Shown here in pieces: positions 14,604-44,228 of a stretch of 64,000 nt of DNA. The notes under the pieces are model-generated. The model ran no database searches, was not told where the DNA came from, and worked only from the letters and a program-made list of their open reading frames with translations. How positions within the stretch are numbered: the stretch's first letter is position 1; every line of letters starts with the position of its first letter. Made by a program: the position numbers and the translations under genes. Source of the DNA: Phycisphaerae bacterium (GTDB lineage: Bacteria; Planctomycetota; Phycisphaerae; UBA1845; UTPLA1); contig DATEMU010000004.1 in the NCBI GenBank assembly GCA_035275405.1, positions 62,001 to 126,000 of the forward strand, read 5' to 3'.

Positions 14604-16632
14604 CCGACAGCGGGCATGGCCCGTTCTTTTTCTATTTGTCATTGCGTCAACGGCCTCCGCCGTCAACGTCACGTATCAGGAAGGCGTCAACGGCTACACC
14701 GGTACGGCCGACACGTTCCTCCAACAAGCCGCGCCGGCTTCGAACAATGGCGCGCTCGACCGCTGCGAGTGGGACAGCGACGACCCCGTCGGCACAGGAC
14801 AGGACAACGTCGCGCTGATCCGCTTCGAGAACATCTTCGGCAATGGTGCCGGACAGGTCCCGCCGGGCTCGCAAATCTTCTCCGCGACGCTCTCCCTCGT
14901 CGTCTTCAACTCAGGAGATGCCGGCACAGTTCGCGAGGCGGCCATCGACTGGAGTGAATCGACAACATGGAACACCTTCGGGCCAAGCCCCGGCGTGCAG
15001 GCCGGCGACTACGGCGCCAGCGTGGCTACTGTCGGCGGATCGATTACGACGCAAAACATTACCGTCACCAGCAGCCTCGCGACCTGGTCGGCCGATCCCG
15101 CGGCCAATCGCGGGTGGATCATCCTCCCGACGGGCAATGGTGGCGTCGAGTTTCGATCCAGCGAATACGCGGTCAATCCTCTCCTTCGGCCCAAGCTCAG
15201 CATCTCGTACGGCACGCCTCCTCCGCTCGCGCTGGTGCGACAACCGTATCTCCAAAGGGGCACACCCACGTCCATGACGATCTGCTGGCGGACCAACATC
15301 GCCAGCGACAGCATCGTGCATTACGGCTCAAACCCGGCGATGCTCGATCAGACGGCGTCGAGCGGGGCCAGCGTGACGGACCACATCGTGACGATCAACG
15401 ACCTGTCGCCGGCGACGACCTACTATTACGACGTCGGCTCAACTGCCGAGGTGCTCGTCGGCGGAGACGCGGATCACTATTTCGTCACATCGCCGAGCGC
15501 GGGCCAGCCCACCGCGTTCAAGGTCTGGATCGTCGGCGATTCCGGCACGGGCGACGCCAATCAGGCGGCGGTGCGGGATGCGATGCTTGCCGCGACCGGT
15601 GCGACGCCGCCGGACCTTTACGTCCACGTCGGCGACATCGCCTACAACAGCGGGACCGATCAGGAATTCACCGACAATTTCTACGCACCCTACGAGGCGA
15701 TCCTTCGCCACACCGTCTGCTGGCCGACGCTCGGCAATCACGAGGGCGCATCCTCCGACTCGCAAACTCAGTCCGGCCCGTATTACGAGGGCTACGTCCT
15801 GCCCGCCGCCGCCGAGGCGGGCGGGCTCGCGTCGGGCACCGAGGCGTACTACTCCTTCAACTATGCCAATGCGCACTTCATCTGCCTCGACTCCCACGAC
15901 ACGCCGCGCACGCCGGGCTCGGCCATGCTGACCTGGCTCGCCGCCGACCTCGCGGCAACGGACCAGCACTGGATCATCGCCTTCTGGCATCATCCGCCCT
16001 ACAGCAAAGGCTCGCACGATTCCGATGACCCGTTCGATTCCAGTGGCCGATTGGTCGAGATGCGCGAAAACGTCCTGCCGATCCTCGAAGCGGGCGGCGT
16101 CGATCTCGTCCTCGCCGGTCACTCGCACATCTACGAACGCTCCTACCTCGTAGACGGAGCCTACGACACCCCGACGACCGCGGCGGGACATATCGTCGAC
16201 GCCGGAGATGGCCGGCTCACCGGCGACGGGGCCTATCTCAAGCCCTACGGACTCGCCGCGCACGAGGGCGCGGTCTATGTCGTGGCGGGCCACGGCGGGG
16301 CGAGCCTTGGCGGCACGGGAGGACACGTCCTCATGTATTTCGACGAGCTGGCATTCGGCTCGTGCCTGTTGACCATCGACGGAAACCATCTCTCGTTGCA
16401 AAACCTGCGCTACGATGGTGCGATCACGGATACGTTTGATCTCATCAAACCTCCGCCCGGCGACATCGACGCCGACGGCGACGTGGACTTCGTCGACCTC
16501 GACCTCTTCGTCGCCGTTTTGCTCGAACAGGAAACGGACACCGGCCGCATCAGTCGCGCCGACCTGGACGGTAGCGGCACGCCCGACGGTCTCGACGCCC
16601 AGCCATTCGCCGCGGCATTACTCGGGTTATAG
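14590..16632 (+). CDS. Secreted purple acid phosphatase-like metallophosphoesterase with dockerin-like tail
   Basis: This 680-residue protein has a signal peptide ending near STASAVNV. Residues of about 25-210 resemble a DNRLRE/CBM-like beta-sandwich. A fibronectin-like purple acid phosphatase N-domain follows (LVRQPYLQRGTPTSMTICWR). The metal site of the metallophosphoesterase is visible as IVGDSGTGD, YVHVGDIAYNSG, TLGNHEG, FWHHPPYS and LAGHSHIYER. The last 60 residues contain two Asp-rich half repeats, GDIDADGDVDFVDLDLFVAV and ADLDGSGTPDGLDAQPFAAA, as in dockerin type I. It probably acts outside the cytoplasmic membrane on phosphomonoesters. It overlaps the upstream TPR gene by 14 bases. 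Confidence 0.87.
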   Translation: MPGTNRQRAWPVLFLFVIASTASAVNVTYQEGVNGYTGTADTFLQQAAPASNNGALDRCEWDSDDPVGTGQDNVALIRFENIFGNGAGQVPPGSQIFSATLSLVVFNSGDAGTVREAAIDWSESTTWNTFGPSPGVQAGDYGASVATVGGSITTQNITVTSSLATWSADPAANRGWIILPTGNGGVEFRSSEYAVNPLLRPKLSISYGTPPPLALVRQPYLQRGTPTSMTICWRTNIASDSIVHYGSNPAMLDQTASSGASVTDHIVTINDLSPATTYYYDVGSTAEVLVGGDADHYFVTSPSAGQPTAFKVWIVGDSGTGDANQAAVRDAMLAATGATPPDLYVHVGDIAYNSGTDQEFTDNFYAPYEAILRHTVCWPTLGNHEGASSDSQTQSGPYYEGYVLPAAAEAGGLASGTEAYYSFNYANAHFICLDSHDTPRTPGSAMLTWLAADLAATDQHWIIAFWHHPPYSKGSHDSDDPFDSSGRLVEMRENVLPILEAGGVDLVLAGHSHIYERSYLVDGAYDTPTTAAGHIVDAGDGRLTGDGAYLKPYGLAAHEGAVYVVAGHGGASLGGTGGHVLMYFDELAFGSCLLTIDGNHLSLQNLRYDGAITDTFDLIKPPPGDIDADGDVDFVDLDLFVAVLLEQETDTGRISRADLDGSGTPDGLDAQPFAAALLGL

Positions 16633-16639
16633 TAACGGG

Positions 16640-18517
16640 ATGCCCCGCCGCTCGGCCGCTTCTCTTCCCCAAGCCTCAAGCCTCAAGTCTCAAGCCTCTT
16701 ACATGGTGCCCCCCTACTGGCACTACGCCATCATAGTGCTGGCCGGACTCATTGCCTATTGGCCCAGCTTTCGCGGCGTCTATCTGCTCGACGACGACCT
16801 GCACATCGTCGCCAACCCCGAAATTAAACAACTCTGGCCCATCACGCGGCATCTGTCCGATCCGGATCGGCCGGTCGTACGACTCTCGCTAGCCATCAAC
16901 TACGCGCTGGGCGGCATCGAACCGTTTGGGTTTCACATCTTCAACCTCGCCATCCACTTCCTGGCCGCGCTGACGCTGTACGGACTGATCCGCGGAACGC
17001 TCGCGCTCCGCGCGCCAAGTCCTGCTCAAGCCTCAGGCCTCAAGTCTCAAGCCTCATCCTTGGCGTTCACCGTTGCCCTGCTCTGGGTCGTGCATCCCCT
17101 GACGACGCAGGCCGTCACCTACATTATCCAGCGCGCCGAATCGACGATGGCCCTCTTTTTCCTCCTCACCCTCTACTGCGTCATGCGCGGCGCTCGCTCG
17201 GCCCGCGCGCCGCTCTGGTACGCCGCCGCCATCGCCGCCTGCGCCGCGGGGATGGGGTGCAAGGAAGTCATGGCGACCGCACCGCTTGTCGTCCTGCTCT
17301 ACGATCGCATCTTCCTCGCCGAATCGTGGAAGGACGTGCTGCGCCGCCGCTGGCCGCTCTACGCCGGCCTCTTTCTGACTGGCGCGATTCTGCTTCGCGG
17401 CGGGGCGGCGGCGGGACTGACGGGAGCGGAATCGGCGAACGCCGCGACCGTCGGCTTCGGGTTTGAAGGCGTCACGCCCTGGCAATACCTCCGCACGCAG
17501 CCCGAAGTCATTCTCCATTACCTGAGGCTCGTCGTCTGGCCGCACCCGCTCTGCTTTGACTACGACTGGCCGCCGGCCACGCTCTCCTCCCGGACGATCT
17601 CGGCCGGTCTGGCGATCCTCGCGGCGGTCGTGGCATCGGCCTGGGCCGTGTGGCGAGGCCGCCCAATCGGCTTCCTCGGCGCGGCGTTCTTCCTGATCCT
17701 CGCACCCACATCAAGCTTCGTGCCCATCAAGGACCTCGCCGTCGAGCATCGCCTGTACCTGCCGCTCGCGGCGGTCATTGCCCTGATCGTCTTCGTCCTG
17801 CACCGACTCCTCGGCTCGGCCGATTCGCGCTCAACGCCGCTGCACGCCGTGCTGCTTGGCGGTGCGGCGCTACTGTTCGGACTACTTACTTATCAACGCA
17901 ACACCCTCTACCAAAGCGAGATCGGCCTTTGGACCGACGTCGTCGCGCAGCGACCGGGTAACGCCCGGGCGTGGGATCATCTGGGCAATGCACAGATGGA
18001 CGCCGATCAGACGGACAAGGCCATCGCTTCCTTTCAGGCCGCGCTGCGGATCGTGCCGAATTGGGCGCTGGTCGAGAACAACCTCGGTAACGCACTGGCC
18101 AAGGCCGGTCGGCTGGAGGAGGCCGCCGCCGCATTGCAGTCCGCGCTGGATCACGCTCCCGTCCTTACTCATGTCCACCTGAACCTCGGCATGGTCCTGC
18201 ACAAGCTCGGCCGCCTGGGCGACGCGGTGGAGCACTACCGGCTGGGGCTGGCCGCGTCGCCGCAACTGGTCCCGTCGCAGAACAACATGGGGATCGCCCT
18301 GCGCGATCTGGGCCGGCTGGCGGAGGCGGAGGAAGCGCATCGAACCGCGCTGCGCTATGCGCCAAACGACGCCGACACGCGCTACGCGCTGGCGTATGTT
18401 CTGGAGTTGCAGGGCAAGCGCGCCGAAGCGGCGGCGGAGTATCGCGAGGTCCTGCGGATCGAGCCGGGCCACGCGAACGCGAAAGTGCGGTTGGCGGCGC
18501 TTGGACAACCGAAGTGA
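16640..18517 (+). CDS. TMTC-like polytopic membrane protein with C-terminal TPR repeats
   Basis: This 625-residue protein has about ten membrane helices followed by TPR units from about residue 425 (GNARAWDHLGNAQMDADQ onward). The membrane part resembles O-mannosyltransferase TMTC-type proteins, with LLDDDLHIVANPEI in the first loop carrying the acidic residues expected of GT-C enzymes. A transferase role in protein glycosylation is therefore possible but not shown. The start could be the ATG at 16640 or 16703; the segment between them is encoded by a short repeat. The same repeat recurs at 17027-17055 inside a loop. The gene begins eight bases after the phosphatase stop. Confidence 0.75.
   Translation: MPRRSAASLPQASSLKSQASYMVPPYWHYAIIVLAGLIAYWPSFRGVYLLDDDLHIVANPEIKQLWPITRHLSDPDRPVVRLSLAINYALGGIEPFGFHIFNLAIHFLAALTLYGLIRGTLALRAPSPAQASGLKSQASSLAFTVALLWVVHPLTTQAVTYIIQRAESTMALFFLLTLYCVMRGARSARAPLWYAAAIAACAAGMGCKEVMATAPLVVLLYDRIFLAESWKDVLRRRWPLYAGLFLTGAILLRGGAAAGLTGAESANAATVGFGFEGVTPWQYLRTQPEVILHYLRLVVWPHPLCFDYDWPPATLSSRTISAGLAILAAVVASAWAVWRGRPIGFLGAAFFLILAPTSSFVPIKDLAVEHRLYLPLAAVIALIVFVLHRLLGSADSRSTPLHAVLLGGAALLFGLLTYQRNTLYQSEIGLWTDVVAQRPGNARAWDHLGNAQMDADQTDKAIASFQAALRIVPNWALVENNLGNALAKAGRLEEAAAALQSALDHAPVLTHVHLNLGMVLHKLGRLGDAVEHYRLGLAASPQLVPSQNNMGIALRDLGRLAEAEEAHRTALRYAPNDADTRYALAYVLELQGKRAEAAAEYREVLRIEPGHANAKVRLAALGQPK
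16670..16698 (+). repeat. CTCAAGY heptamer tandem repeat, copy 1
   Basis: Four tandem units of a CTCAAGC/CTCAAGT heptamer form a 29-base block at the start of the membrane-TPR gene. It is read as QASSLKSQAS if the 16640 start is used. A copy with one mismatch lies at 17027-17055. Confidence 0.75.
17027..17055 (+). repeat. CTCAAGY heptamer tandem repeat, copy 2
   Basis: This 29-base block differs from copy 1 at 16670 by one base. It lies inside the same gene and frame, encoding QASGLKSQAS in a loop between two membrane helices. Such heptamer repeats resemble the short tandemly repeated elements known from cyanobacteria. Confidence 0.75.
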
Positions 18518-18539
18518 TCGCCGCCTCTTTACGCCGAAG

Positions 18540-18765
18540 GCGTTACATCCGTTAGCCCGGGGTTGGTCGCACCAGCGACTTACCCTGGGTCGCCGACACG
18601 CGCATGCAACCCAACCCCATCGGGGTTGCGCCACAACCCCGTTGGGGTTGAGACCGTCTTCGCATCGCAAACCCAAGGTAGCCCCGGCGCGCCGGGACAA
18701 CCCTGGGCTAATGGATATAGCCCCGTTGGGGCATTTGCGGCGCACCGGCTATTAGCCGGTGCCAC
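18540..18765. repeat. Cluster of GC-rich palindromic repeats (REP-like)
   Basis: The gap between two genes holds at least five hairpins. Two share the same 7-bp stem CAACCCC/GGGGTTG (18612-18628 and 18634-18650). A perfect palindrome CCCGGCGCGCCGGG lies at 18683-18696, CCCCGTTGGGG at 18721-18731, and GCACCGGCTA/TAGCCGGTGC with a one-base loop at 18742-18762. The last covers the stop codon of the gene ending at 18752. The element recalls intergenic palindromic families seen in Planctomycetota. It may also slow or end transcription from both sides. Confidence 0.65.
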
Positions 18766-20320
18766 ACGATAACACGCCATTGGCCAGGACATACTGCCGC
18801 TTGCACCGCGAACATGCGGCGTTGGTCGTGATTTCCGGCAACCGCTCGCCGCATTCGCAGACCCAGCCCGCCTGTTTCGCCGGGACGCCGAGCATCAGCG
18901 CGTAATCCGGCACGTCGCCGGTCACGACCGCGCCGGCGCCGATGAAACAATGCCGGCCCAGCGTGTGACCGCAGAGGATTGTCGCGTTGGCGCCGATTGT
19001 CGCCCCCTGGCGGACGAGCGTCTTGTGATAATGCTCCGCGCCCCGCTGGGGGTACTTCGAGCGCGGGTCAGTGATGTTCGTGAAGACCATCGACGGGCCG
19101 CAGAAGACATGGTCCTCCAGCTCCACGCCTTCATAGACCGAGACGTTGTTCTGAATCTTGACGTGGTCGCCGATGCGGACGTTCGGGGCGATGTTGACGT
19201 TCTGGCCGATGGAGCAGTTCTTTCCGATCCGCGCGCCGGTCTGCACGTGCGAAAAGTGCCAGATCTTCGTGCCGGCGCCGATCTCCGCGCCGTCGTCGAC
19301 GTAGCTGGACGCGTGTACGAAATAGTCCTTGCCCACGTGCTGCCCTCTCCGGTCGGTCTCCACGAGACTCTGCGTCGCCTGCTCCAGGATCTCCAGCACC
19401 TCGATCGCGCTGGCCGCGTCGGCGATCTCCGGCGGGCCCTTATCGAGCCGCTCGACAAAGTAGGCCATCTCCGCGGTCAGCGGCGGCGTGGCGTCGTACG
19501 CGATCGACTCGGGCGGACCTTTCGGCTTGACCGGCGCACCGGCCATCCAATCGATGTCGGCCGGGTATCCATAATAGTGCAGACCGCCGCCGGACGCCGA
19601 GTCCACAAACGTGAGCATGCCCTTGTCGCCGATGATCACGAGCCGGTGCTCCTTGAACGGGTGCAGCCAGCTCACGAAGATGTGACCGGTCACGCCGCCG
19701 GGGTACTTGAGAACCGTGAGCGTCGAGTCGTGCAGCGGCCGGTCGAGGAACATCGCCCCGTGCGTGCCGATGTCGATGGGCCGCGCACCGATCAGGTATT
19801 GGAAGATCGAGATGTCGTGCGGGGCGAAGCTCCAGAGGATGTTTTCCTGCTGGCGGATGATGCCGAAGTTGAGGCGGTTGCTGTAGAGGTATTGCAGGCG
19901 GCCGATCTTGCCCGCGGCGAGCAGTTCCTTGATCCTGCGGATCGCGGGATGGAAGAGCAGGACGTGACCGACCATGAGGGGGACGCCCTTTTTGTCCGCG
20001 AGGGCCTTGAGGGCCTTCGCTTCGGCGGAGGTGAGGGCCAGCGGCTTTTCGACGAGGACGGGCTTGCCGGCGGTGAGGATCTGGCGGGCGATATCGAAGT
20101 GCGTCTCGGCGGGCGTGGCGACGGTGAAGGCGTCGAACCCGGCGGCGAGGGCGTCCGCAACTTCGCCGAAGGTCGGGATGCCGGGGTAGCCCTGGCCAAG
20201 CGTGGCCAGGGCCTTCCTGTCGCAGTCCACGACGGCGCCGAGATGGCCGAAATCATGGAGCGTCTTGACGTGGTTTCGGCCCCATCGACCCGCCCCGACG
20301 ACGCAGATACGCTTGGCCAT
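18752..20320 (-). CDS. Fused Gfo/Idh/MocA oxidoreductase and hexapeptide acetyltransferase with zinc-ribbon tail
   Basis: Residues of about 1-320 form a Gfo/Idh/MocA NAD-dependent oxidoreductase, with VVGAGRWGRNHVKTL as the nucleotide loop and VEKPLALTSAEAKAL as the family EKP motif. Residues of about 335-480 form a left-handed beta-helix acetyltransferase (YVDDGAEIGAGTKIWHFSHV, CSIGQNVNIAPNVRIGDHV). The tail has four Cys in CECGERLPE and CSRCKRQYV, a likely zinc ribbon. The pair resembles the WbpB/WbpD (WlbA/WlbB) steps that make UDP-2,3-diacetamido uronic acids for surface polysaccharide, here joined in one chain. The intermediate aminotransferase is not nearby. The last codons overlap a palindromic repeat. 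Confidence 0.87.
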   Translation of the reverse strand: MAKRICVVGAGRWGRNHVKTLHDFGHLGAVVDCDRKALATLGQGYPGIPTFGEVADALAAGFDAFTVATPAETHFDIARQILTAGKPVLVEKPLALTSAEAKALKALADKKGVPLMVGHVLLFHPAIRRIKELLAAGKIGRLQYLYSNRLNFGIIRQQENILWSFAPHDISIFQYLIGARPIDIGTHGAMFLDRPLHDSTLTVLKYPGGVTGHIFVSWLHPFKEHRLVIIGDKGMLTFVDSASGGGLHYYGYPADIDWMAGAPVKPKGPPESIAYDATPPLTAEMAYFVERLDKGPPEIADAASAIEVLEILEQATQSLVETDRRGQHVGKDYFVHASSYVDDGAEIGAGTKIWHFSHVQTGARIGKNCSIGQNVNIAPNVRIGDHVKIQNNVSVYEGVELEDHVFCGPSMVFTNITDPRSKYPQRGAEHYHKTLVRQGATIGANATILCGHTLGRHCFIGAGAVVTGDVPDYALMLGVPAKQAGWVCECGERLPEITTNAACSRCKRQYVLANGVLSCGTG

Positions 20321-20893
20321 GGGCAGGTTTTACTCCGGCGGTGGACTTCGGGCAAACGACGGGAACCACAGAGACACAGAGGCGCAGAGATATTTTTTCC
20401 TTTTTTCTGGAAGCGCCACTGGCTGGGATTTGGTGGGACGGGAGAGTTTGGTCTGCGGAATGGGAGGACGTTCAGCATGGTCCCCCCCCGTGGGTGAATG
20501 AGCCTGAAGGAGGCTGAATGAGCCGGAACGTGATCCAGCCATGACGCACGCAGAGGCGCGGAGGCGCAGAGTTTTTTTTGTTGGTGGAACAAGGCGGAAC
20601 CAGGCGGAACGGGTCCACCAATGGCGCAGATGGGGACAGATGGAGGAGGTGAACAGGAGAGCAGGTGACCGGGGGGGAGGGGGGGCCGAAATTGAGCGGA
20701 ATTGAGCGAGAAAACGGACGGGATTTGCACTTTGTTGGCGACATGGTCTCGTACCTCGATGCGGGCGCGGAGTTCCCTTGCGTACGGGGATATTCTCCCG
20801 CAGCACATGGTACCTAACAACAACCTAATACAATAGCGCATTGGAAAAGAAAGTCAAGTGAAGGTTTGAAGTTCCTCAGGCAGGAGACCTGGC
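20321..20893. repeat. Non-coding gap rich in low-complexity and dispersed-type repeats
   Basis: No gene is supported in these 573 bases. Two related segments read ACCACAGAGACACAGAGGCG near 20370 and a variant with GCAGAGGCGCGGAGGCGCAG near 20545, each followed by a run of T. This motif type is scattered in many bacterial genomes. Other direct repeats are TGAATGAGCC near 20496 and 20513, GGCGGAAC near 20595, and AATTGAGCG near 20692 and 20701. A long G-run lies near 20670. The 5' leaders of the two flanking minus-strand genes must also lie around here. Confidence 0.55.
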
Positions 20894-25804: not shown

Positions 25805-28800
25805 CTATTGGGAGGGCTGAGTTGTCGCCCGCCACTCGGCGGCTTTGGCGTCGTAGCCTTGGTTCGGCTCGGCCGCATGCCAGGCATCGTAGAGGGCCGC
25901 CAGCGCGGTGGCCACCTCGGCGACATCCTGCGGCCGCGCACCTGTCGCCCCGATCAGGATGGTGTGTGCTTCGGTGAGGCTTGCCTCCGCCGCCGCGAAC
26001 TCGCCGGTGGCGTTGCGCGCGCGGCCGAGGATACTGAGGAACAGACCCAGGCGAATGGCATTACTGCCGGTGAAAACCCTGCGAGCCGCCGCCTCTGTCG
26101 GGCCCAGCAGGTCGATCGCCTCTTGAGGCCGTGCCTGGGCCAGGAGAAGACCGCTCATGTTGCCGATCGCTGAGAGCGTGAGCAGATGTTGATCACCCAG
26201 CACCCGTCGACACTTTTCCAACGCTTCCCGCGAGTAAGGCTCGGCCTCCGTCAGCTTGTTCTGTGCTCTCAACAAACCGGCAAGGTTAAAGAGGGAGTTC
26301 AGCGTGTCCGGGTGCTCGTCGCCCAGAAGGCGCCGTCGGATCTCCAGAGATTCGCGCGAAAATGCCTCGGCCTCGGCGAACTTGCCCTGCTGTCGGAGTA
26401 TGGCCCCCAGGGTATTGATGGAATTGACCGTATAGGGGTGTTCGTCGCCCAGTGTGCGGCGGCGGATCGCCAGCGCCTCGCGACTCGACTCTTCCGCTTC
26501 AGTCAGTTTTCCCCGGGTCAGCTGCAGCAGGCTCAGATTGCCTAACGAGGTGAGCGTGTCCTGGTGCTCTTCGCCCAGCACTCGGCGGCGCTTGTCCAAC
26601 GCCTCGCGGCACGATACTTCGGCCTCCTCCAGTTTGCCCGCGGATTGGAGCACCGTGCCCAGGTTGCTGATCGCCATCAGCGTGTGTGGATGGTCGTCAC
26701 CGAGGACGCGGCGGCGCTTCTCCACGGCCTCGCGGGCAAAAACTTCTGCCTCCTCCATGCGGCCCGCCGTCTTGAGCAGCATGGCGATATTGCTGATCGC
26801 CGTAAGCGTGTCGGGATGTTCGTCACCCAGGACACGGCGGTACCTCTCCAGGGCCTCGCGGTAATAATCTTCCGCCTCCGCCATTTTGCCCAAGCCATAT
26901 AGCATGACCGCCATGTTGTTGATGGCGATGATCGTGTGGGGATGGTCGTCGCCCAGGACGCGGCGATATTTCTCCAGCGCCTCGCGGTCATATGCTTCGG
27001 TTTCGGCGACCTTGCCCTGTGCTTTGAGAAGCATTCCCATGTTGACGAGGGAGGCGAGCGTGTCGGAGTGCTCCTCGCCGAGGACGCGGCGTCGCCCGTC
27101 CAACGCCTCGCGGACATAGGCTTCAGCCTCCAGCAGCTTTCCCTGGTCTCGAAGCAGGATTCCCAGCTTATCGATGGAGTCGAGGGTGTCGGGATGATCG
27201 TTACCAAGGACACTGCGGCGCTTCTCCATCGCCGCGCGCAAATGCGGTTCCGCCTCCGGGAAATTGCCCTGAGCCCAGAACAGATAGCCCATCTCTTTCA
27301 TTGAATCGAGCGTATCCGGATGTTCATCGCCCAGTTCACGGCGACGGATCGCCAGTGCTTCTTCCTGCGGCGCAGTGGCCGCGTCGAGCAATCCCAGATC
27401 GCGCAGGGTCGTAGCCGACGTCTGCAGGAGCCGCGCTCTTACCAGCGGTTGATCGGCGAATTCGTCATCGATGGCGCGGAGGGCCGGCTGGAAGAAATTT
27501 TCGTCCAGCGATTCCAATGCCAGACCCGTGAAGTCGCTGCCGGCGACAAGCTTTTCCAGCTCCGCGACGCGGGCTTCGACTTCATCCGGCGGCAGGTTTG
27601 AGGCCTTGGCGGCGGCCCGCGCCTTTTCGAGCAGATCGCCCCGGAGCTTCACACCCATCGTCTGGGCGTTGATGCCCGAGAGCTGCACCTGCTGGAAGCT
27701 CGCAACTTTCGCGAGTTCGTCGGCCCGTGCCTGCGTTTCTTGCTCAGCCGTCTCGGCTCGTGTGAGCGCGTTTTCGGCGGTCCGGCGCGCGCGGATTTCG
27801 CGAATGCCGAACGCAATGGACACGCCGCTCCCCAGAAGAAGGGCCGCCGCCACCACCGCGCCCGCAACCACTAGCCCGCGATTGCGCCGAACGAACTTGC
27901 GCAAGCGATAGCCGGTGCTCGGAGGAGTCGCCAGGATGGGCTCGTTCGCCAGATGGAGGCGAATGTCGCGAACCAACTCACCGGCGCTCTGGTACCTTTG
28001 CTCCGGTTCCTTGGAAAGACACTTCAGGATGATCGTCTCGACGTCGCGATCCAAGTCGCGACGAATTGAAGAAGGACGAGCCGGGCTCGTGTGAACGATG
28101 TGACGAACGACGTCGTCGATCCGCCCCGAAACCGGATAGGGGAAGCGCCCCGTCACGAGTTGGTAAAGGATCACTCCGAGGGAATACACATCCGTGCGAA
28201 TATCCAGCAGATCGGAATCACCGCCCGCCTGTTCCGGGCTCGCCCAGGGTAGCGAGCCGACGAACTGCCCGGTCATGGTCATGCCGCGCGCGGAGGAGCG
28301 CTCCGCGGCTTCCTGGACCCACTTGGCCAGGCCGAAGTCGAGGATGCGCGGCTGACCCTCCTCGTCGATTCGAATGTTGCCGGGTTTGAGATCGCGATGA
28401 ATGACGCCGCGCAGATGGGCGACATTGACGGCATCGCAAATCAACGCGAAAAGTCTCAATAACTCGTCAATGGACAAATCCGCGCCGGCCACATAGGCGT
28501 CGAGGGGCTGGCCCGCGATGTAGTCCATCACATAGTAGGCATGACCGGCGGTGGTGCCGTGGTCATGGATGCCGACGATGTGGGGATGATCGAGCCGGCT
28601 GAGCAAGTCGATTTCACGATCGAAACGTAAGCGTTCGGACGCCTCGGCGAACGGGCCTTCCTTGAGAACCTTGATGGCCTTCTTGCGCAGCGTGGATTCC
28701 TGAATGGCCTGATAGACGACGCCCTGACCCCCGCGATGGACTTCGCCCAGAACCCGGTAGCCGGGGACGTGAAGAGGCGCTGGATCGTGTTGGGTACGCG

Positions 28801-35276: not shown

Positions 35277-37391
35277 ATGATCCGATCCAACGGTGCCGTC
35301 ATCGCACTTCTCGTTTCCAGTCTCCAGTTTCTGGTTTCCAGCAGGCCCGCTACCGGGTTCCCCATCGATCAGCAAGCCTACGTCAAGGCCTCGAACACCG
35401 GCGCAGGTGACGTCTTTGGCCTCTCGGTGGCCGTGTCGGGCGACACGGTCGTGGTCGGCGCCGCTGGCGAGTCCAGCATGGCCACGGGCGTGGACGGCGA
35501 ACAGGACGACGACAATGCTGCGAACTCCGGCACTGTCTATGTCTTTGTCCGCACCGGCGAGGTCTGGAGCCAGCAGGCCTACCTCAAGGCCTCGAACACG
35601 GACCCGAACGACTTTTTCGGCACCTCGGTGGCCATATCAGGCGACACGGTGGTGGTAGGGGCTCCGAACGAGGCGAGCATCGCCACGGGAGTGAATGGCG
35701 ACGACACCGACAACACCCTGTCCAACTCCGGCGCTGCTTATGTCTTTACGCGCAGCGGGACGACCTGGACTCAGCAGGCCTACCTCAAGGCTTCCAGCGT
35801 CGGGCCGAACGCCCTCTTTGGCACGGCGGTGACGATGTCGGGCGACACGGTGGTGGTCGGCGCCCCCGGCGAAGACAGCAACGCGACGGGCGTGAACGGC
35901 AATGAGGGCGACAATAGCGCTGTGAACTCCGGCGCGGCGTACGTCTTTACGCGCAGCGGGACCACCTGGAGCCAGCAGGCCTACGTCAAGGCTTCCAACA
36001 CCGGGGCCGAAGACCAATTCGGCTTGTCGGTGGCCATTACAGGCGACACGCTGGTGGTTGGCGCCCCAAGCGAGGACAGCAGCGCCATGGGTGTGGACGG
36101 CGACGGGGGCGACGACAACACTTCCGCCTCCGGCGCTGCCTATATCTTTACGCGCAGCGGAACGTCCTGGAGCCAACAAGCCTTTGTCAAGGCCTCCAAC
36201 ACCGGGGCCAATGACCAATTCGGCATCGCGGTGGCGGTGTCGGGCGACACGGTCGTGGTCGGGGCGGACGGCGAGGCCAGCAACGCAACGGGCGTCAACG
36301 GCAATCAGGCCAACAACAGCGTTTCAAGCTCCGGCGCTGTCTATGTCTTCGTACGTGACACCGGTGGCGCATGGAGTCAGCAGGCTTACGTGAAGGCGTC
36401 GAACACCGGAGGCAGTGACTTTTTTGGCCGCGCGGTGGCGGTGTCGGCCGACACGTTGGCGGTCGGCGCTCAATTCGAGGACAGCAATGCCACAGGCATC
36501 GACGGCAACGGGTCCAACAACAGCGCTTCGAGCTCCGGCGCCGCCTATTTTTTCGTGCGGTCCGGCGGTGTCTGGAGCCAGCAGGCGTACACGAAGGCCT
36601 CGAACACAGGGGCCGGTGACCGGTTCGGCCTCTCGTTGGCCATGTCGGGCGACACGTTGGCGGTCGGCGCCCCAAACGAGGCCAGTAGCGCCATGGGAGT
36701 CAATGGCAACGAGGCCGACGACACCGCCTCCAACTCCGGCGCGGCGTACTTCTTCACGATCGACATCGACGGCGACGGCATCCGTGACTCGCAAGACAAC
36801 TGTCCGACTGTTTCCAATCCTGATCAGGCCGATTGCGACCAGGACGGTGTCGGCGATGCGTGCTCGGCCGATCCGGACAACGACGGCGTTCCGAACGCAT
36901 GCGACAACTGTCCTTCCATAGCCAATCCGGATCAAACGGATTCTGACGGAGATGGTATCGGCGATGCCTGCGATACCTGCCAGACCGTCGCCAACCCGGG
37001 ACAGGAAGATGCGGACGGCGACGCGATCGGCGACGCCTGCGATAACTGTATCTCCGTCGCCAATCCGGATCAGGCCGACGCCGACGGGGATGGCAAAGGA
37101 GACGTCTGTGACAATTGTCCGGCGGCGTTCAATGCCGACCAGGCCGATGGTGACGGCGACGGCACAGGCGACGCCTGCGACAACTGCCCAGCTGTCTTCA
37201 ATGCGGATCAAACCGATTCGGACGGGGACGGCATCGGCGACGCCTGCGCGCCACCGCCTCCTCCCGACGCCGCCTGCGGTACTTGCGCGCCGGGAGCGTT
37301 CCCCGTCGCCGGACTGGTCGTTCCTGCCAGCCTGATCGGCCGTCGGTTGCGACAACGGCGTGTTCGCACCGGTGTCGGCAAACTACATTAA
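35277..37391 (+). CDS. Secreted FG-GAP-like seven-repeat propeller with six calcium repeats and Cys/TM/Arg tail
   Basis: This 704-residue precursor has a signal peptide, part of which is encoded by a simple repeat (35312-35342). Seven repeats of about 68 residues follow, each with [30 protein letters not shown] and [12 protein letters not shown]. This resembles FG-GAP/integrin-alpha-type blades. Six thrombospondin type-3-like units form an unusually long stalk (residues of about 495-655). The tail is [20 protein letters not shown] with RRLRQRR. The ATG at 35277 has GGGAG six bases upstream. The stop is 10 bases before the TTG of the next gene, so they are probably cotranscribed. Confidence 0.8.
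35312..35342 (+). repeat. TTTCCAGTCTCCAG-type simple repeat inside a signal peptide
   Basis: The bases form imperfect tandem units of a TTTCCAG/TCTCCAG heptamer. They encode the hydrophobic core [11 protein letters not shown] of the signal peptide of the FG-GAP-like gene. This resembles short tandemly repeated elements placed in frame. Confidence 0.65.
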
Positions 37392-37401
37392 GGAGATTCA
37401 C

Positions 37402-40047
37402 TTGAACAGGTTTCAGCGCTCAGACAGTCTTTTCCTTCACTGCGCGCTCGTTGCCTCACTGGCTATCACGGCCGTGGGGGCAAAACGAGCAGGTGCCCAG
37501 CTCATCATCACGGAGATCATCGACGCCACCGGCGGCGCGGGGCATGGCCTTCTTCGTCCTTTCGGCATCGCCGTGGACGCCGCCGGCAACGTCTACGTGA
37601 TCGGAGTGGGCAGTAACAACGCCTTCAAGATCACGCCCGCCGGGGGCATTACGCAGATCATCGACGCGAGCGGCGACGGCAACAATGTCCTTGCTGGTGC
37701 CGCCGGCATCGCCGTGGACTCCGCGGGAAACGCGTATGTGACAGGACAGAACAGCGAAAACGTCTTCAAGATTACGCCCGCCGGCGCCATTGTCCAGATC
37801 ATCGACGCAACCGGCGACGGTACGCATGTGCTTGATGAGCCAACCGGCGTCGCCGTGGATGGTGCGGGTAACATTTACGTGGCGGGAACCGTCAGCGACA
37901 ACGCCTTTAGGATCACGCCCGCCGGGGTCAAGACCCAAATCATCGACGCGGCGGGCAGTGGGCCGGGCAAAGCCCTAGATTCTCCTCGCGGCGTCGCCGT
38001 GGACGGCGATGGCAATGCTTACGTAACGTGTATCAGCTCAGGCAACGCCTTCAAGATCACTCCCGCCGGAGTCATCACCCAAATCATCGACGCCGCCGGC
38101 GACGGTGCCGGCCATGTCCTCGCCTATCCTGAATTCGTTGCCGTAGACGCAACAGGCAACGTGTACGTGACGGGCGCTGATAGTGACAACGCCTTCAAGA
38201 TCACGCCTGCCGGGGTCATCACCCAGATCATCGACGCGACCGGCGACGGCGCGGGCCAGCCACTGCCTGATCCCGCCGGCATTGGCGCGGATGCCGCGGG
38301 CAACATCTTTCTGGCGGCAGAGAACAGTGACGGCGTCTTCAAGATCACTCCCGCAGGCATGATCACCAAGATCATCGGGCCGGACGGCGACGGGGCGGGC
38401 AATACGCTCAACGATCCGTACGGTCTCGCCGTGGACGCCGCGGGCAACGCCTACGTGGCAGGAATTCTCAGCGACAACGCGTTTCGGGTTTCGCCGGACG
38501 ACGACGGCGACGGCAAGGCGAACGACGCCGACAACTGTCCGACTGCATTTAATGCGGATCAGGCCGATGGGGACGGAGACGGCAAGGGCGACGCCTGCGA
38601 CAACTGTCCGGCGGACTTCAATGCGGATCAACTTGATTCTGATTCCGACGGCATCGGCGATGCTTGCGCACCTCTCCCTCCTCCCGACGCCGCCTGCGGG
38701 ACCTGCGCGCCGGGCGTGTTTCCGACGGTGGGGTTGTTTACGCCGATCGTGCTCGTCGGCTGGAAGCGGCGGCAGCGGCCGGCAAAACGAGCCGTAGGTG
38801 GGGCGAATCGCAATACGACGAAGAACCGTGTCGCTGGAATGGGTAGCAGGTATGCACTCACATGGGCGATGCTGTTCGTGTTCTGCGCGGCATCCGGCGC
38901 CTCGGCCCAGCCGGTCCGGCTGCTCGTCAGCAGTGAGAGCAGTGACCAAGTCCTTCGCTACAACGGCGCGACCGGCGCCTTCAGCGACGCCTTCATCCCG
39001 TCCGGCGTCGGCGGATTGGATGGGCCCCAGGGTCTGGTGTTCGGCCCGGACGGCAACCTGTACGTCGGCAGTTTCTTTAGCGATACCGTCCTGCGTTACA
39101 ACGGCGCGACCGGCGCCTTCATCAACGCCTTCGTCCCGGCCGGCAGCGGCGGGTTAAATGGGCCCAAAGGCCTGATTTTCGGCCCGGACGGCAACCTCTA
39201 CGTCAGCAGTACCGTCACCGACAGCATCCTTCGCTACAACGGCGCGACGGGCGCCTTCATCGGCGCCTTCGTCCCTACCGCGTCCGGCGGGCTGAATGGG
39301 CCCAGCGATCTGGTCTTCGGCCCGGATGGCAACCTGCACGTCAGCAGTGAAAGCAGCGACAGCGTCCTGCGCTACAACGGCGCGACCGGCGCCTTCATCG
39401 ACGCCTTCGTCCCGGCCGGCAGCGGTGGGCTGGACGGGCCCTTCGGACTGGTCTTCGGCCCGGACGGCAACCTGTATGTCAGCAGTGGCGGCACTGACAG
39501 CGTCCTGCGCTATAACGGCGCCACCGGCGCCTTCATCGACGCCTTCGTCCCCGCCGCCGGCGGGGGGCTAAATTTGCCCCGTGGGCTGGCCTTCGGCCCG
39601 GACGGCAACCTGTACGTCCCTGGTCTGCTCCCCAGCACCATCCTGCGCTACAACGGCGGGACCGGCGCCTTCATCGACGCCTTCGTCCCGACCGGCAGCG
39701 GCGGACTGGATGGGCCAAGATTCCTGATCTTCTACTACGACGACGGCGACGGTGTATCGGGCGCCGCCGACAATTGTCCCATCGTTTCCAATTCCGATCA
39801 AGCCGACGCGGACGGCGATGGGAAGGGCGACGCGTGTGACAACTGCCCTACCGACTTCAATGCAGATCAGGCGGACGCAAACGCCGATGGCGTCGGTGAT
39901 GCTTGCGAGCCGCCGCCTCCTCCGCCTGACGCCGCCTGCGGCGCCTGCGCGCCGGGGGCTTTTCCCTTCGCCGGACTGGTCGTCCCGGCCTGCCTGATCG
40001 GACAGCGTTTTAGGCGAAACCACTCAAGACTCGGAAAAAAATTTTAG
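37402..40047 (+). CDS. Double precursor: family A propeller plus tail, then internal signal peptide, family B propeller plus tail
   Basis: This single 881-residue frame holds two complete precursors. Part one (37402-38838) has a signal peptide ending GAKRAGAQ, seven family A repeats (NAFKITPAG), calcium units and a tail ([18 protein letters not shown], then [10 protein letters not shown]). Part two starts near 38839 with [20 protein letters not shown] as a signal peptide, has six family B repeats ([33 protein letters not shown]), calcium units, and a final tail ([23 protein letters not shown]). I chose the TTG at 37402 because AAGGAG lies six bases upstream. No stop separates the parts, and no good ribosome site precedes 38839. 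The product may be a fusion cleaved later. Confidence 0.75.
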
Positions 40048-41471: not shown

Positions 41472-44228
41472 ATGTGCAGATTTGTACCATCAATCAATCG
41501 TTGCTTGCCGCGCGCCCTCGTCGCCATTCTGACCGTCTCCGCCCTCGGACTGAGTCGCGCAAGCGCCCAGCTCATCATCACCGAGATCATCGACGCGACC
41601 GGCGGGGAAGGCCAAAACCTCATAAGCATCGAGAGCATCGCTGTAGACGCGGCGGGCAACGCTTATATCGCGGGCGTGGGCAGTAACAACGCCTTCAAGA
41701 TCACGCCCGGCGGAAGCATCACTCAGATCATCGACGACAGTGGCGATGGGGCGGGTAATGTCCTCACGCTTCCCCGCAGTATCGCCGTGGACGCCGAGGG
41801 TAACGCCTTCATCGTAGGACAGTCCAGCGATAACGCCTTCAAGATTACGCCCGCGGGGTTTATTACTGAGATCATCGACGCGACCGGCGCTGGCCCGGGC
41901 AATGGACTTGATGGTCCTACGGGCATTGCCGTGGATGCCGCAGGCAACGTGTACGTAACCGGTGTCCAGACCCATAACGCCTTCAAGATCACGCCCGCCG
42001 GGGTCAAGACGCAGATCATCGACGCAGCCGGCGCTGGCCCCGGACAGGACCTTGATAGTCCTCGCGCCATCACGGTCGACGCCGCGTTTAACGTGTATGT
42101 CGCAGGGGCGAACAGCGACAACGTCTTCAAGATAACGCCCGCCGGGGTCATTTCCGAGATCATCGACGCGACGGGCGACGGCGCAGGAAATGTCCTAGAT
42201 TTTCCTTTCCTCGGCATTTTCGTGGACTCGGCGGGGAACGCCTACGTGACGGGGGCGGCCAGCAATAACGCCTTCAGGATCACGCCCGCCGGGGTCAAGA
42301 CGCAGGTCATCGACGCGACGGGCGACGGTAGCACTGTCCTGGATGGTCCCACCGGCATCGCCGTGGATGCCGTGGGGAACATTTACGTAGCGAGCGAAAA
42401 CAACGACGTCGCCTTCAAGATCACTCCCACCGGCGTCATCAGCAAAGTCATTGACGCGGGCGGCGACGGTGCGGGTCATGGCTTGGACGCGCCATTCGGC
42501 ATCGCCGTGGACGACGCGAGCAACATCTACGTAGCGGGAGCAAACAGCGACAACGCCTTCAGGATCGCGCCGGACACGGACGGTGACGGCAAAGCCGATG
42601 ATGCCGACAACTGCCCCAGCGCATTCAACGCCGATCAGGCAGACACCGACGGCGACGGCAAAGGCGATGCCTGTGACAACTGCCCCGACGTGTTCAATGC
42701 TGATCAGGCGGACGCGGATTCAGACGGCGTCGGCGACGCCTGTGCGCCGCTGCCGCAACCGCCACCGCCCGACGTCGCTTGCGGAACCTGTGCGCCGGGC
42801 GCCATGCCCGCGGCGGTGTTGAGTCTGTCGTTTTTGATGGCGACGCGACGGCCGCCGCCGACCAAGCGAACCCTTTGGAGAGCCAGTTATATGAAGACGA
42901 AGAATCGTGACTCGGGAATCGGCAACAAGTGTAGCCCCGCGTTGGCGGCAATCCTGGTGTTCACCGCGGGGTCCAGCGCGTCGGCCCAGCCGGTCCATCT
43001 GCTCATCAGCAGTGGAAACACCGACCAAGTCCTGCGCTACAACGGCACGGCCGGCGCCTTCATCGACGCGTTCGTTCCCGCAGGCGGCGGCGGGCTGATT
43101 GGGCCCGCGGGCCTGGTCTTCGGCCCGGACGGCAACCTCTACGTCAGCAGTTACGACATCGACAGGGTCCTGCGTTACAACGGCGCGACCGGCGAGTTCA
43201 TCGACACCTTTGTCTCGGCCGCTTCCGGCGGGCTGGATGCACCCAACGGCCTGGTCTTCGGTCCGGACGGCAACCTGTATGTCAGCAGTGAAAACACAGA
43301 CGGGGTCCTGCGCTATAACGGCACGACTGGCGCCTTCATCGACGCCTTGGTCCCTGCCGGCGCCGGCGGGTTGGATGAGCCCCAAGGCCTGGTCTTCGGC
43401 CCGGATGGCAACTTGTACGTCAACAGCGGAACCACCGACAGCGTCCTGCGCTACAACGGTGTGACCGGCACCTTCATCGACGCCTTCATCCCCACCGCCA
43501 GCGGCGGGCTGGATGGGCCCCACGGGTTGGTCTTCTGCCCGGACGGCAACCTGTACGTCAGCAGTGGCTCCACCGACAGTGTCCTGCGTTTCAACGGCGC
43601 GACCGGCGCCTTTATCGACGCCTTCGTCCCAGCCGCCAGCGGCGGGCTGGATGTGCCCTTCGGTCTGGTCTTCGGCCCGGACGGCAACCTGTACGTCAGC
43701 AGTCAACGCACCGACAGGGTCCTGCGCTACAACGGCGCGACCGGCACCTTCATTGACGCCTTCGTCCCCGCCGTCTCCGGTGGGCTGGATAATCCGTCGT
43801 ATCTGATCTTCGACAACGACGGCGACTTCGACGGCGTGCCTGACGATGCCGACAACTGTCCGTTCGTCCCCAACACCGATCAGACTGACGGCGACGGTGA
43901 TGGAGTGGGAGACGTGTGCGACAACCTCGCGTTCGATAACGACGGCGATGGCGTGCCCAACGGCGCCGACAATTGCCCCATCGTTTCCAATTCCGACCAA
44001 GCCGATCCCGATGGCGATGGCAAGGGCGACACCTGTGACAACTGCCCGGGCGTATTCAATGCGGAACAAGCTGATGCGAATGCCGACGGCATAGGTGATG
44101 CTTGCACGCCTCCGCCACCTCCCGACGCGGCCTGCGGGACCTGCGCGCCGGGAGTTTTGCCGGCATCGTTCTTAAGTCTCTCGCTGATGATGTGGGGACG
44201 ACGGCGGAATTATGGCCGCAAAGATTAG
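41472..44228 (+). CDS. Second double precursor: family A propeller plus tail, then internal signal peptide, family B propeller plus tail
   Basis: This 918-residue frame repeats the design of 37402-40047. Part one (41472-42890) has a signal peptide ending SRASAQ, seven family A repeats and a tail ([18 protein letters not shown], then ATRRPPPTKR). Part two starts at an in-frame ATG at 42891, preceded by GGAG ten bases upstream, with a signal peptide (LAAILVFTAGSSASAQ), six family B repeats, four calcium units and the tail [18 protein letters not shown] with WGRRRNYGRK. Part two could be made by restart at 42891, by read-through from part one, or both. The main ATG at 41472 has AAGGTG seven bases upstream; a GTG at 41463 is less likely. 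Confidence 0.75.
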   Translation: MCRFVPSINRCLPRALVAILTVSALGLSRASAQLIITEIIDATGGEGQNLISIESIAVDAAGNAYIAGVGSNNAFKITPGGSITQIIDDSGDGAGNVLTLPRSIAVDAEGNAFIVGQSSDNAFKITPAGFITEIIDATGAGPGNGLDGPTGIAVDAAGNVYVTGVQTHNAFKITPAGVKTQIIDAAGAGPGQDLDSPRAITVDAAFNVYVAGANSDNVFKITPAGVISEIIDATGDGAGNVLDFPFLGIFVDSAGNAYVTGAASNNAFRITPAGVKTQVIDATGDGSTVLDGPTGIAVDAVGNIYVASENNDVAFKITPTGVISKVIDAGGDGAGHGLDAPFGIAVDDASNIYVAGANSDNAFRIAPDTDGDGKADDADNCPSAFNADQADTDGDGKGDACDNCPDVFNADQADADSDGVGDACAPLPQPPPPDVACGTCAPGAMPAAVLSLSFLMATRRPPPTKRTLWRASYMKTKNRDSGIGNKCSPALAAILVFTAGSSASAQPVHLLISSGNTDQVLRYNGTAGAFIDAFVPAGGGGLIGPAGLVFGPDGNLYVSSYDIDRVLRYNGATGEFIDTFVSAASGGLDAPNGLVFGPDGNLYVSSENTDGVLRYNGTTGAFIDALVPAGAGGLDEPQGLVFGPDGNLYVNSGTTDSVLRYNGVTGTFIDAFIPTASGGLDGPHGLVFCPDGNLYVSSGSTDSVLRFNGATGAFIDAFVPAASGGLDVPFGLVFGPDGNLYVSSQRTDRVLRYNGATGTFIDAFVPAVSGGLDNPSYLIFDNDGDFDGVPDDADNCPFVPNTDQTDGDGDGVGDVCDNLAFDNDGDGVPNGADNCPIVSNSDQADPDGDGKGDTCDNCPGVFNAEQADANADGIGDACTPPPPPDAACGTCAPGVLPASFLSLSLMMWGRRRNYGRKD

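Follow-up and report, generated by a model that had tools for sequence, protein, structure and literature searches.

CTCAAGC heptamer arrays in a membrane-protein gene and in conserved enzymes of a Phycisphaerae bacterium: a likely dispersed DNA repeat

In-frame insertion of repeats in genes is already known from Rickettsia, whose palindromic elements, about 100–150 nt long, lie in frame in unrelated genes at tolerated places. The cyanobacterial STRR sequences are dispersed heptamer arrays, and small mobile elements of cyanobacteria, some of them located within tandem heptamers, were reportedly described by Elhai in 2008. Dispersed heptamer arrays are also on record in the accessible parts of two further papers (PMC4692102, PMC4679880). 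The first of these, in the part available, treats the GGGAATC and GGGGA(C/T)T repeats of Xanthomonas and Nostoc as G-quadruplex formers that are over-represented intergenically. The second deals with the TAACTGA repeat of Beggiatoaceae, and its available part describes sets of two to six units each, most of which lie just before start codons. Of about 169 sets, 24 lie in or overlap genes, and many of these occupy stop codons or protein ends or belong to short hypothetical proteins; horizontal transfer was suggested for the spread of the repeat, the mechanism not being evident (PMC4679880, same part). For Borgs, the accessible text of PMC9879509 reports in-gene repeat units that are all divisible by three, and repeat regions that arise independently.

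Here, we analyzed a stretch of 64,000 nt (the window) from a Phycisphaerae genome of 5.29 Mb on 19 contigs, referred to as G000. A gene in this window carries two CTCAAGC arrays (Table 1). A preliminary description had reported two 29-base blocks with a single base difference and a common reading frame, and alignment, codon phase, and TRF all agree with it. The 29-mers at positions 16670–16698 and 17027–17055 are identical at 28 of 29 positions and have a common codon phase, and TRF reported period-7 repeats of 4.1 units at 16670–16698 and of 4.6 units at 17025–17056. With flanking codons, block 1 and block 2 translate as PQASSLKSQASY and AQASGLKSQASS. The host gene was matched in all 61 genomes searched, G000 counted. 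A Pfam scan assigned TPR families to its product (best 3.7e-25), and a PMT_2 match of 22.8 bits remained under the cut-off of 26.1.

Table 1. Features of the window gene that carries two heptamer arrays (positions within the window).
Feature	Position	Strand	Description
Host gene	16640..18517	+	625-residue membrane protein; TPR repeats C-terminal; N-terminal part weakly PMT_2-like
Array 1	16668..16697	+	CCCAAGC CTCAAGC CTCAAGT CTCAAGC CT; flanking partial units included
Alternative start ATG	16703..16705	+	Directly 3' of array 1; from sequence
Array 2	17025..17056	+	CTCAAGC CTCAGGC CTCAAGT CTCAAGC CTCA; partial units included

The frame of the host gene opens at ATG 16640, the upstream gene ends at 16632, and block 1 begins 36 bases past this end. 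The coding status of block 1 is a matter of which start codon is used, since ATG 16640 lies before it and ATG 16703 after it. Judged from the sequence, block 1 may be translated if ATG 16640 is the start, and may otherwise belong to a leader just upstream of the true start. The AlphaFold model has block 1 in an N-terminal region of low confidence (pLDDT about 50–54). Block 2 lies well within the gene whichever start is used. It had been assigned to a loop between membrane helices, which holds only approximately: the model puts it (residues 129–139) at the opening of helix 128–151, the second of two predicted helices, after a break at 124–127, and pLDDT falls to 62–72 there. Among 16 aligned homologues of the window protein, the stretch around block 2 varies in length, and the LKPQASS-type peptide was absent at both block sites in all 16.

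Neither window array contains an inner inverted repeat of at least 8 nt, the single reported pair (16991–17012) being located outside the array, and no inverted terminal repeats were found at either of them. A hairpin or palindromic element was set aside for lack of an inverted repeat in both arrays. In this respect the two arrays differ from elements of the MITE/REPIN type and, being tandem and ~31 nt long, also from the Rickettsia palindromic elements. A megablast search of window positions 16000–18600 against plasmids returned no match.

The blocks had been interpreted as a spreading short tandem repeat, and counting them across the genome supports this interpretation. An exact 20-mer gave 19 matches in G000 and none for the reversed control, and a 25-mer search that tolerated three mismatches or fewer gave 84 matches versus one for the control; the 84 matches collapse into 49 arrays. 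The 25-mer search is biased to arrays of at least about 3.5 units. A two-unit pattern gave 113 matches (control 0), which include at least six extra places beyond the 49 arrays among the matches listed. Based on the genome counts compared to the reversed control, a chance origin of the blocks was set aside. In having a tandem 7-nt unit, and in having it at many separated places above chance, the family agrees with the dispersed heptameric repeats.

The typical array is C(CTCAAGC)4CT, i.e., four heptamers. Alignment of the units revealed a leading C in 40 of the 49 arrays, heptamers near CTCARGY, and a trailing C and T in 45 and 44 arrays, respectively. Merged lengths were 32 nt in 38 arrays, 25 nt in eight, 39 nt in two, and 53 nt in one. 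Units are often imperfect; at unit 2, the variants G and T are linked (Fisher p = 0.0014, uncorrected and for one of four units tested). Furthermore, the array loci L086, L100, and L104 have a longer composite in common, with TCGAAGACTCGACGYGGCGAG inside heptamer units. L086 and L100 are both predicted to be coding (L086 by codon score and frame only) and read the composite in different frames, which favours spread at the DNA level over a selected peptide. We consider it likely that a non-autonomous DNA repeat of ~31 nt, dispersed over 49 places, has spread as DNA and that the two blocks are copies of it.

Outside G000, the distribution is patchy. The exact 20-mer was found in 7 of 61 relatives versus 2 of 61 for the reversed control word, and in 11 of 392 phylum genomes versus 9 of 392 (G000 counted). 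As the phylum counts are near-equal, the word is not commoner than its reverse, and the excess lies within particular genomes; presence elsewhere in the phylum may be of independent origin. Two genomes, G008 and G039, contained 155 and 162 overlapping matches (control 0). Array length is variable in samples from both and in other genomes, unlike in G000. A scan of species genomes revealed at least 114 stretches, and the 80 listed span many phyla, eight of them being contigs of one groundwater Wallbacteria genome. This breadth may reflect either transfer or repeated origin. As a 7-nt unit that is dispersed through one genome and patchy across distant phyla, CTCAAGC resembles TAACTGA as presented in the accessible part of PMC4679880. 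The reversed control word itself reached 14 and 20 matches in G092 and G216, two genomes of one family (f47), and constitutes another dispersed heptamer family there.

These data also bear on ordinary slippage, by which each array would have grown separately where it stands, starting from a short seed and without moving between sites. Heptamers are over-represented among bacterial long simple repeats, according to the available parts of PMC4692102 and PMC4679880, arrays of other species span 2.9–14.9 units among the contigs listed, and the occurrence of the reversed word in arrays of nine phylum genomes demonstrates that other heptamers arise too. In G000, however, a single heptamer occupies 49 sites versus one control match, the length is mostly four units, a composite is common to different sites, and steps of 7 nt would break the frame in coding copies. 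We therefore regard independent growth as unlikely. Slippage probably adjusts array length in other genomes, and slippage alone fits poorly for the G000 arrays; the description as a short tandem repeat thus needs correction insofar as the G000 arrays, nearly fixed at four units, are not the product of simple slippage.

An automatic rule based on codon statistics and an open frame, with thresholds set after inspection of the first scoring, placed 19 of the 49 arrays in frame in genes, 29 in a class termed other, and one at a contig edge. The term other means not classed as coding, and not necessarily intergenic. The rule misses block 1 of the window, which was added by hand (20 of 49), and includes L086, whose host was not Pfam-scanned. 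All 17 distinct host proteins that were scanned had a Pfam match, and these hosts are unrelated. They comprise MutS, diaminopimelate epimerase (DapF), a dihydroorotase-type amidohydrolase, an RNB ribonuclease (RNase R), UbiD, a DHO_dh plus ferredoxin protein (PreA, our label), a protein of the B12-dependent methionine synthase type (MetH), FabA-like domains, and a CofH/MqnC-type radical SAM protein, among others. In a protein kinase, the array lies between HRDLKPANIL and DFG. The repeat thus reaches the interior of conserved enzymes, which extends the preliminary description beyond the window gene. This differs from TAACTGA, as 19 of the 49 CTCAAGC arrays are in frame, many of them deep in conserved enzymes. 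A GH31 frame of 1230 codons at L094 carries two arrays (C7:366794 and 368188) ~1.4 kb apart, like the pair in the window gene.

All three sense frames of the consensus are stop-free and encode a rotation of LKPQASS, and the antisense strand contains TGA in each frame. Stop codons in one orientation limit placement within genes, as for TAACTGA (PMC4679880, available part). The coding copies are all sense-oriented (25 of 25 in three genomes), which is partly by construction, because the rule requires an open frame. An antisense array between same-frame coding flanks was found in none of the 48 arrays scored in G000 (the contig-edge array was unscored). The nearest case, C8:70262, has flanks that are best read antisense in one frame, with an upstream score of −0.11, below the cut-off. 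The same search gave two cases among the 46 arrays sampled from G039, both at L376, and none among the 18 sampled from G008. These samples comprise 15 regions of G008, one of which was picked for its PreA copy, and 40 regions of G039, drawn from the 155 and 162 overlapping matches. Four of the 18 sampled arrays of G008 and two of the 46 of G039 were coding (42 of 46 in G039 were classed as other).

Two further explanations can be weighed against these positions. If the repeat were a regulatory or binding sequence, a role put forward for TAACTGA of Beggiatoaceae, it would be kept for use by the cell, with coding copies being incidental. The 29 copies not classed as coding, plus the one at the contig edge, and the possible position of block 1 directly 5' of a start codon would suit such a role; the patchy occurrence (7/61 relatives and 11/392 phylum genomes) speaks against it and makes it distinctly improbable in our view. 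Alternatively, the arrays could be contingency tracts for phase variation, in which the gain or loss of one 7-nt unit by slippage shifts the frame and so turns a gene on or off. Given hosts with housekeeping functions such as MutS, DapF, and dihydroorotase, often imperfect units, and a nearly fixed length, we find this scarcely credible.

Ten hosts, chosen from the 17 as the more conserved, were aligned with five to eight relatives each, all of the same family and none of the same genus as G000. In 10 of 10 hosts, the array lies in a short stretch that differs between genomes in sequence and mostly in length, within an otherwise well-conserved protein, and the residues of the relatives opposite the array are unrelated or missing at all ten loops. 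Identity among the relatives was 0.04–0.45 in the alignment window over the array, compared to control-window medians of 0.40–0.85 in the same proteins. For nine of the ten hosts, no control window was as variable; for RNase R, 6.5% were. The weakest loop is that of MetH, where the relatives are 0.45 alike and 7–8 residues long. Variation in length was a less clear measure than identity, being reached by 26% of the control windows in MqnC and by 18% of those in DapF, and its UbiD control was inflated by partial alignments; the conclusion rests on identity.

Compared to compact relatives, the net gain is ~4 to 11 residues by eye, a spread that does not establish a clean 30-nt insertion. Comparison with PDB structures (best chain) placed gaps opposite the array of 8 residues in MutS, 8 residues in DapF, and 11 residues in three pieces in dihydroorotase. 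The alignments of the relatives suggest that the coding copies are insertions. Like the Rickettsia palindromic elements, they are in frame within unrelated protein genes. The sites may reflect selection rather than targeting, loops being variable anyway. That the insertions occupy tolerated sites, as previously proposed, agrees with the length-variable stretch around block 2 and with the variable stretches in the ten other hosts.

The alignments also bear on a selected linker peptide, PQASSLKPQAS, which would be retained for protein function. Three genera have a similar peptide in the PreA loop, and among the coding copies one phase is weakly preferred (11, 5, and 3 copies in phases 1, 2, and 0; p = 0.06). 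However, the hosts are unrelated, all three phases are present, and the same consensus is seen, by eye, in copies not classed as coding. Moreover, at the ten loops the relatives either lack residues or have unrelated ones, and the frame in which the composite is read differs between two predicted genes. The same peptide encoded by other codons, which would indicate constraint on the protein, was not seen: among the relatives, the peptide turned up in PreA from G008 and G013, and there its coding sequence consists of the same heptamers. Taken together, we judge retention of a peptide to be very improbable, and continue with spread as DNA as the preferred reading.

Several of the loops contain other repeats in other genomes. 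The PreA loop could be read by motif in 10 of 15 loci (unmatched: G003, G005, G009, G011, and G016), and G006 and G014 had distant PreA matches only. CTCAAGC arrays occupy this loop in G000, G008, and G013, which represent three genera. In G002, a sister species of G013 in the same genus, the loop holds the palindromic CCCTCTCCCTCCCAGGGAGAGGGCCGGGGTGAGGG; G012 has another palindrome and G015 an unrelated longer filler. The loop is shorter in G001 and G004 and nearly missing in G007 and G010. One half of the G002 palindrome gave 58 matches in G002, 24 in G000, and 11 in G013 (control 0 in 17 of 17 genomes). The MqnC loop of G001 consists of GTCAAAAN octamers, with 10 matches in this genome including the loop copy (control 0), and the MutS loop of G008 of GGGGGACC octamers, with 25 matches including the loop copy (control 4). 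Further fillers are palindrome-like in MetH of G008 and ATCCAAA-like in RNase R of G012 (seen at the loop only).

In an unrooted tree built on ten protein segments, with nine genomes included, G000 lies next to G008 (support 72) and G013 groups with G002 (support 100). With this placement, the PreA array must have been gained twice, or gained once and lost at least three times. It is conceivable, and we propose it tentatively, that the housekeeping-enzyme loops of this family are recurrent landing sites for several unrelated small repeat families, so that the active repeat of each genome fills the same loop.

Other repeats were observed in the window and at the array loci. A 30-base sequence at window positions 20571–20600, GTTTTTTTTGTTGGTGGAACAAGGCGGAAC, has words of at least 18 bases in common with the array loci L085, L087, L092, L113, and L115, and looks, from sequence comparison, like a second dispersed repeat that accompanies the heptamers. 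Short stretches at 20413–20435, 20510–20529, and 20654–20671 are common to L095, L095, and L113, respectively. The hairpin-like CACCGGCTATTAGCCGGTG at 18741–18767 overlaps the 3' end of a minus-strand gene at a convergent pair, also occurs in L100, and is possibly a terminator or a palindromic repeat. In L079, L087, L092, L093, L102, and L105, the array is followed by sequence that resembles ACAGGGAGCGCTGAGCA by eye, as though these tails belonged to a larger composite repeat; with a strict pattern, two of the six (L079 and L102) are recovered. TRF further reported long tandem repeats, their units measuring about 126 to 201 nt, at 26574–26987, 35370–36742, 37563–38480, 38950–39716, and 43006–43790. 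The repeat at 35370–36742 has words in common with L100, whose frame carries FG-GAP repeats.

Regarding a mechanism for the spread of CTCAAGC arrays, we assume that copies would land widely and that selection would purge those that break proteins. Survivors in genes would be sense-oriented, comprise a net multiple of three, and lie in loops. With less confidence, we suggest that whole arrays could be copied from resident arrays by recombination or by template switching in repair. Copying of whole arrays is favoured by the near-fixed length and the shared composite; the linkage signal at unit 2 is modest.

In having a small insert inside heptamer units, the TCGAAGACTCGACGYGGCGAG composite resembles the small mobile elements reportedly found in cyanobacteria. 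The CTCAAGC family shares its dispersed heptamer arrays with the GGGAATC and GGGGA(C/T)T repeats reported from Xanthomonas and Nostoc in the available part of PMC4692102, but within the CTCAAGC word neither G nor C occurs three times in a row, CC being found only at unit junctions. Like the repeats in Borg open reading frames (PMC9879509, accessible text), the arrays are tandem, located in genes, and encode a low-complexity peptide; unlike these, one 7-nt unit is common to many sites. Among the papers listed by limited word searches of the literature, no title concerned a CTCAAGC repeat or repeats lying in frame within enzymes of planctomycetes. Within the literature searched, one heptamer array deep in many conserved enzymes, at loops filled differently in each genome, appears to be new.

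The arrays demonstrate that a short dispersed repeat survives deep in conserved enzymes, at loops that sister lineages fill otherwise. How heptamer arrays spread without an evident mechanism is a question also posed in the available part of PMC4679880. The CTCAAGC family provides a concrete, testable case in which repeats give rise to new protein sequence, and PreA, MutS, MqnC, and RNase R are sites at which their gain, loss, and replacement can be tracked. If the loops of this family are indeed recurrent landing sites, repeat movement would be a steady supply of new protein segments.
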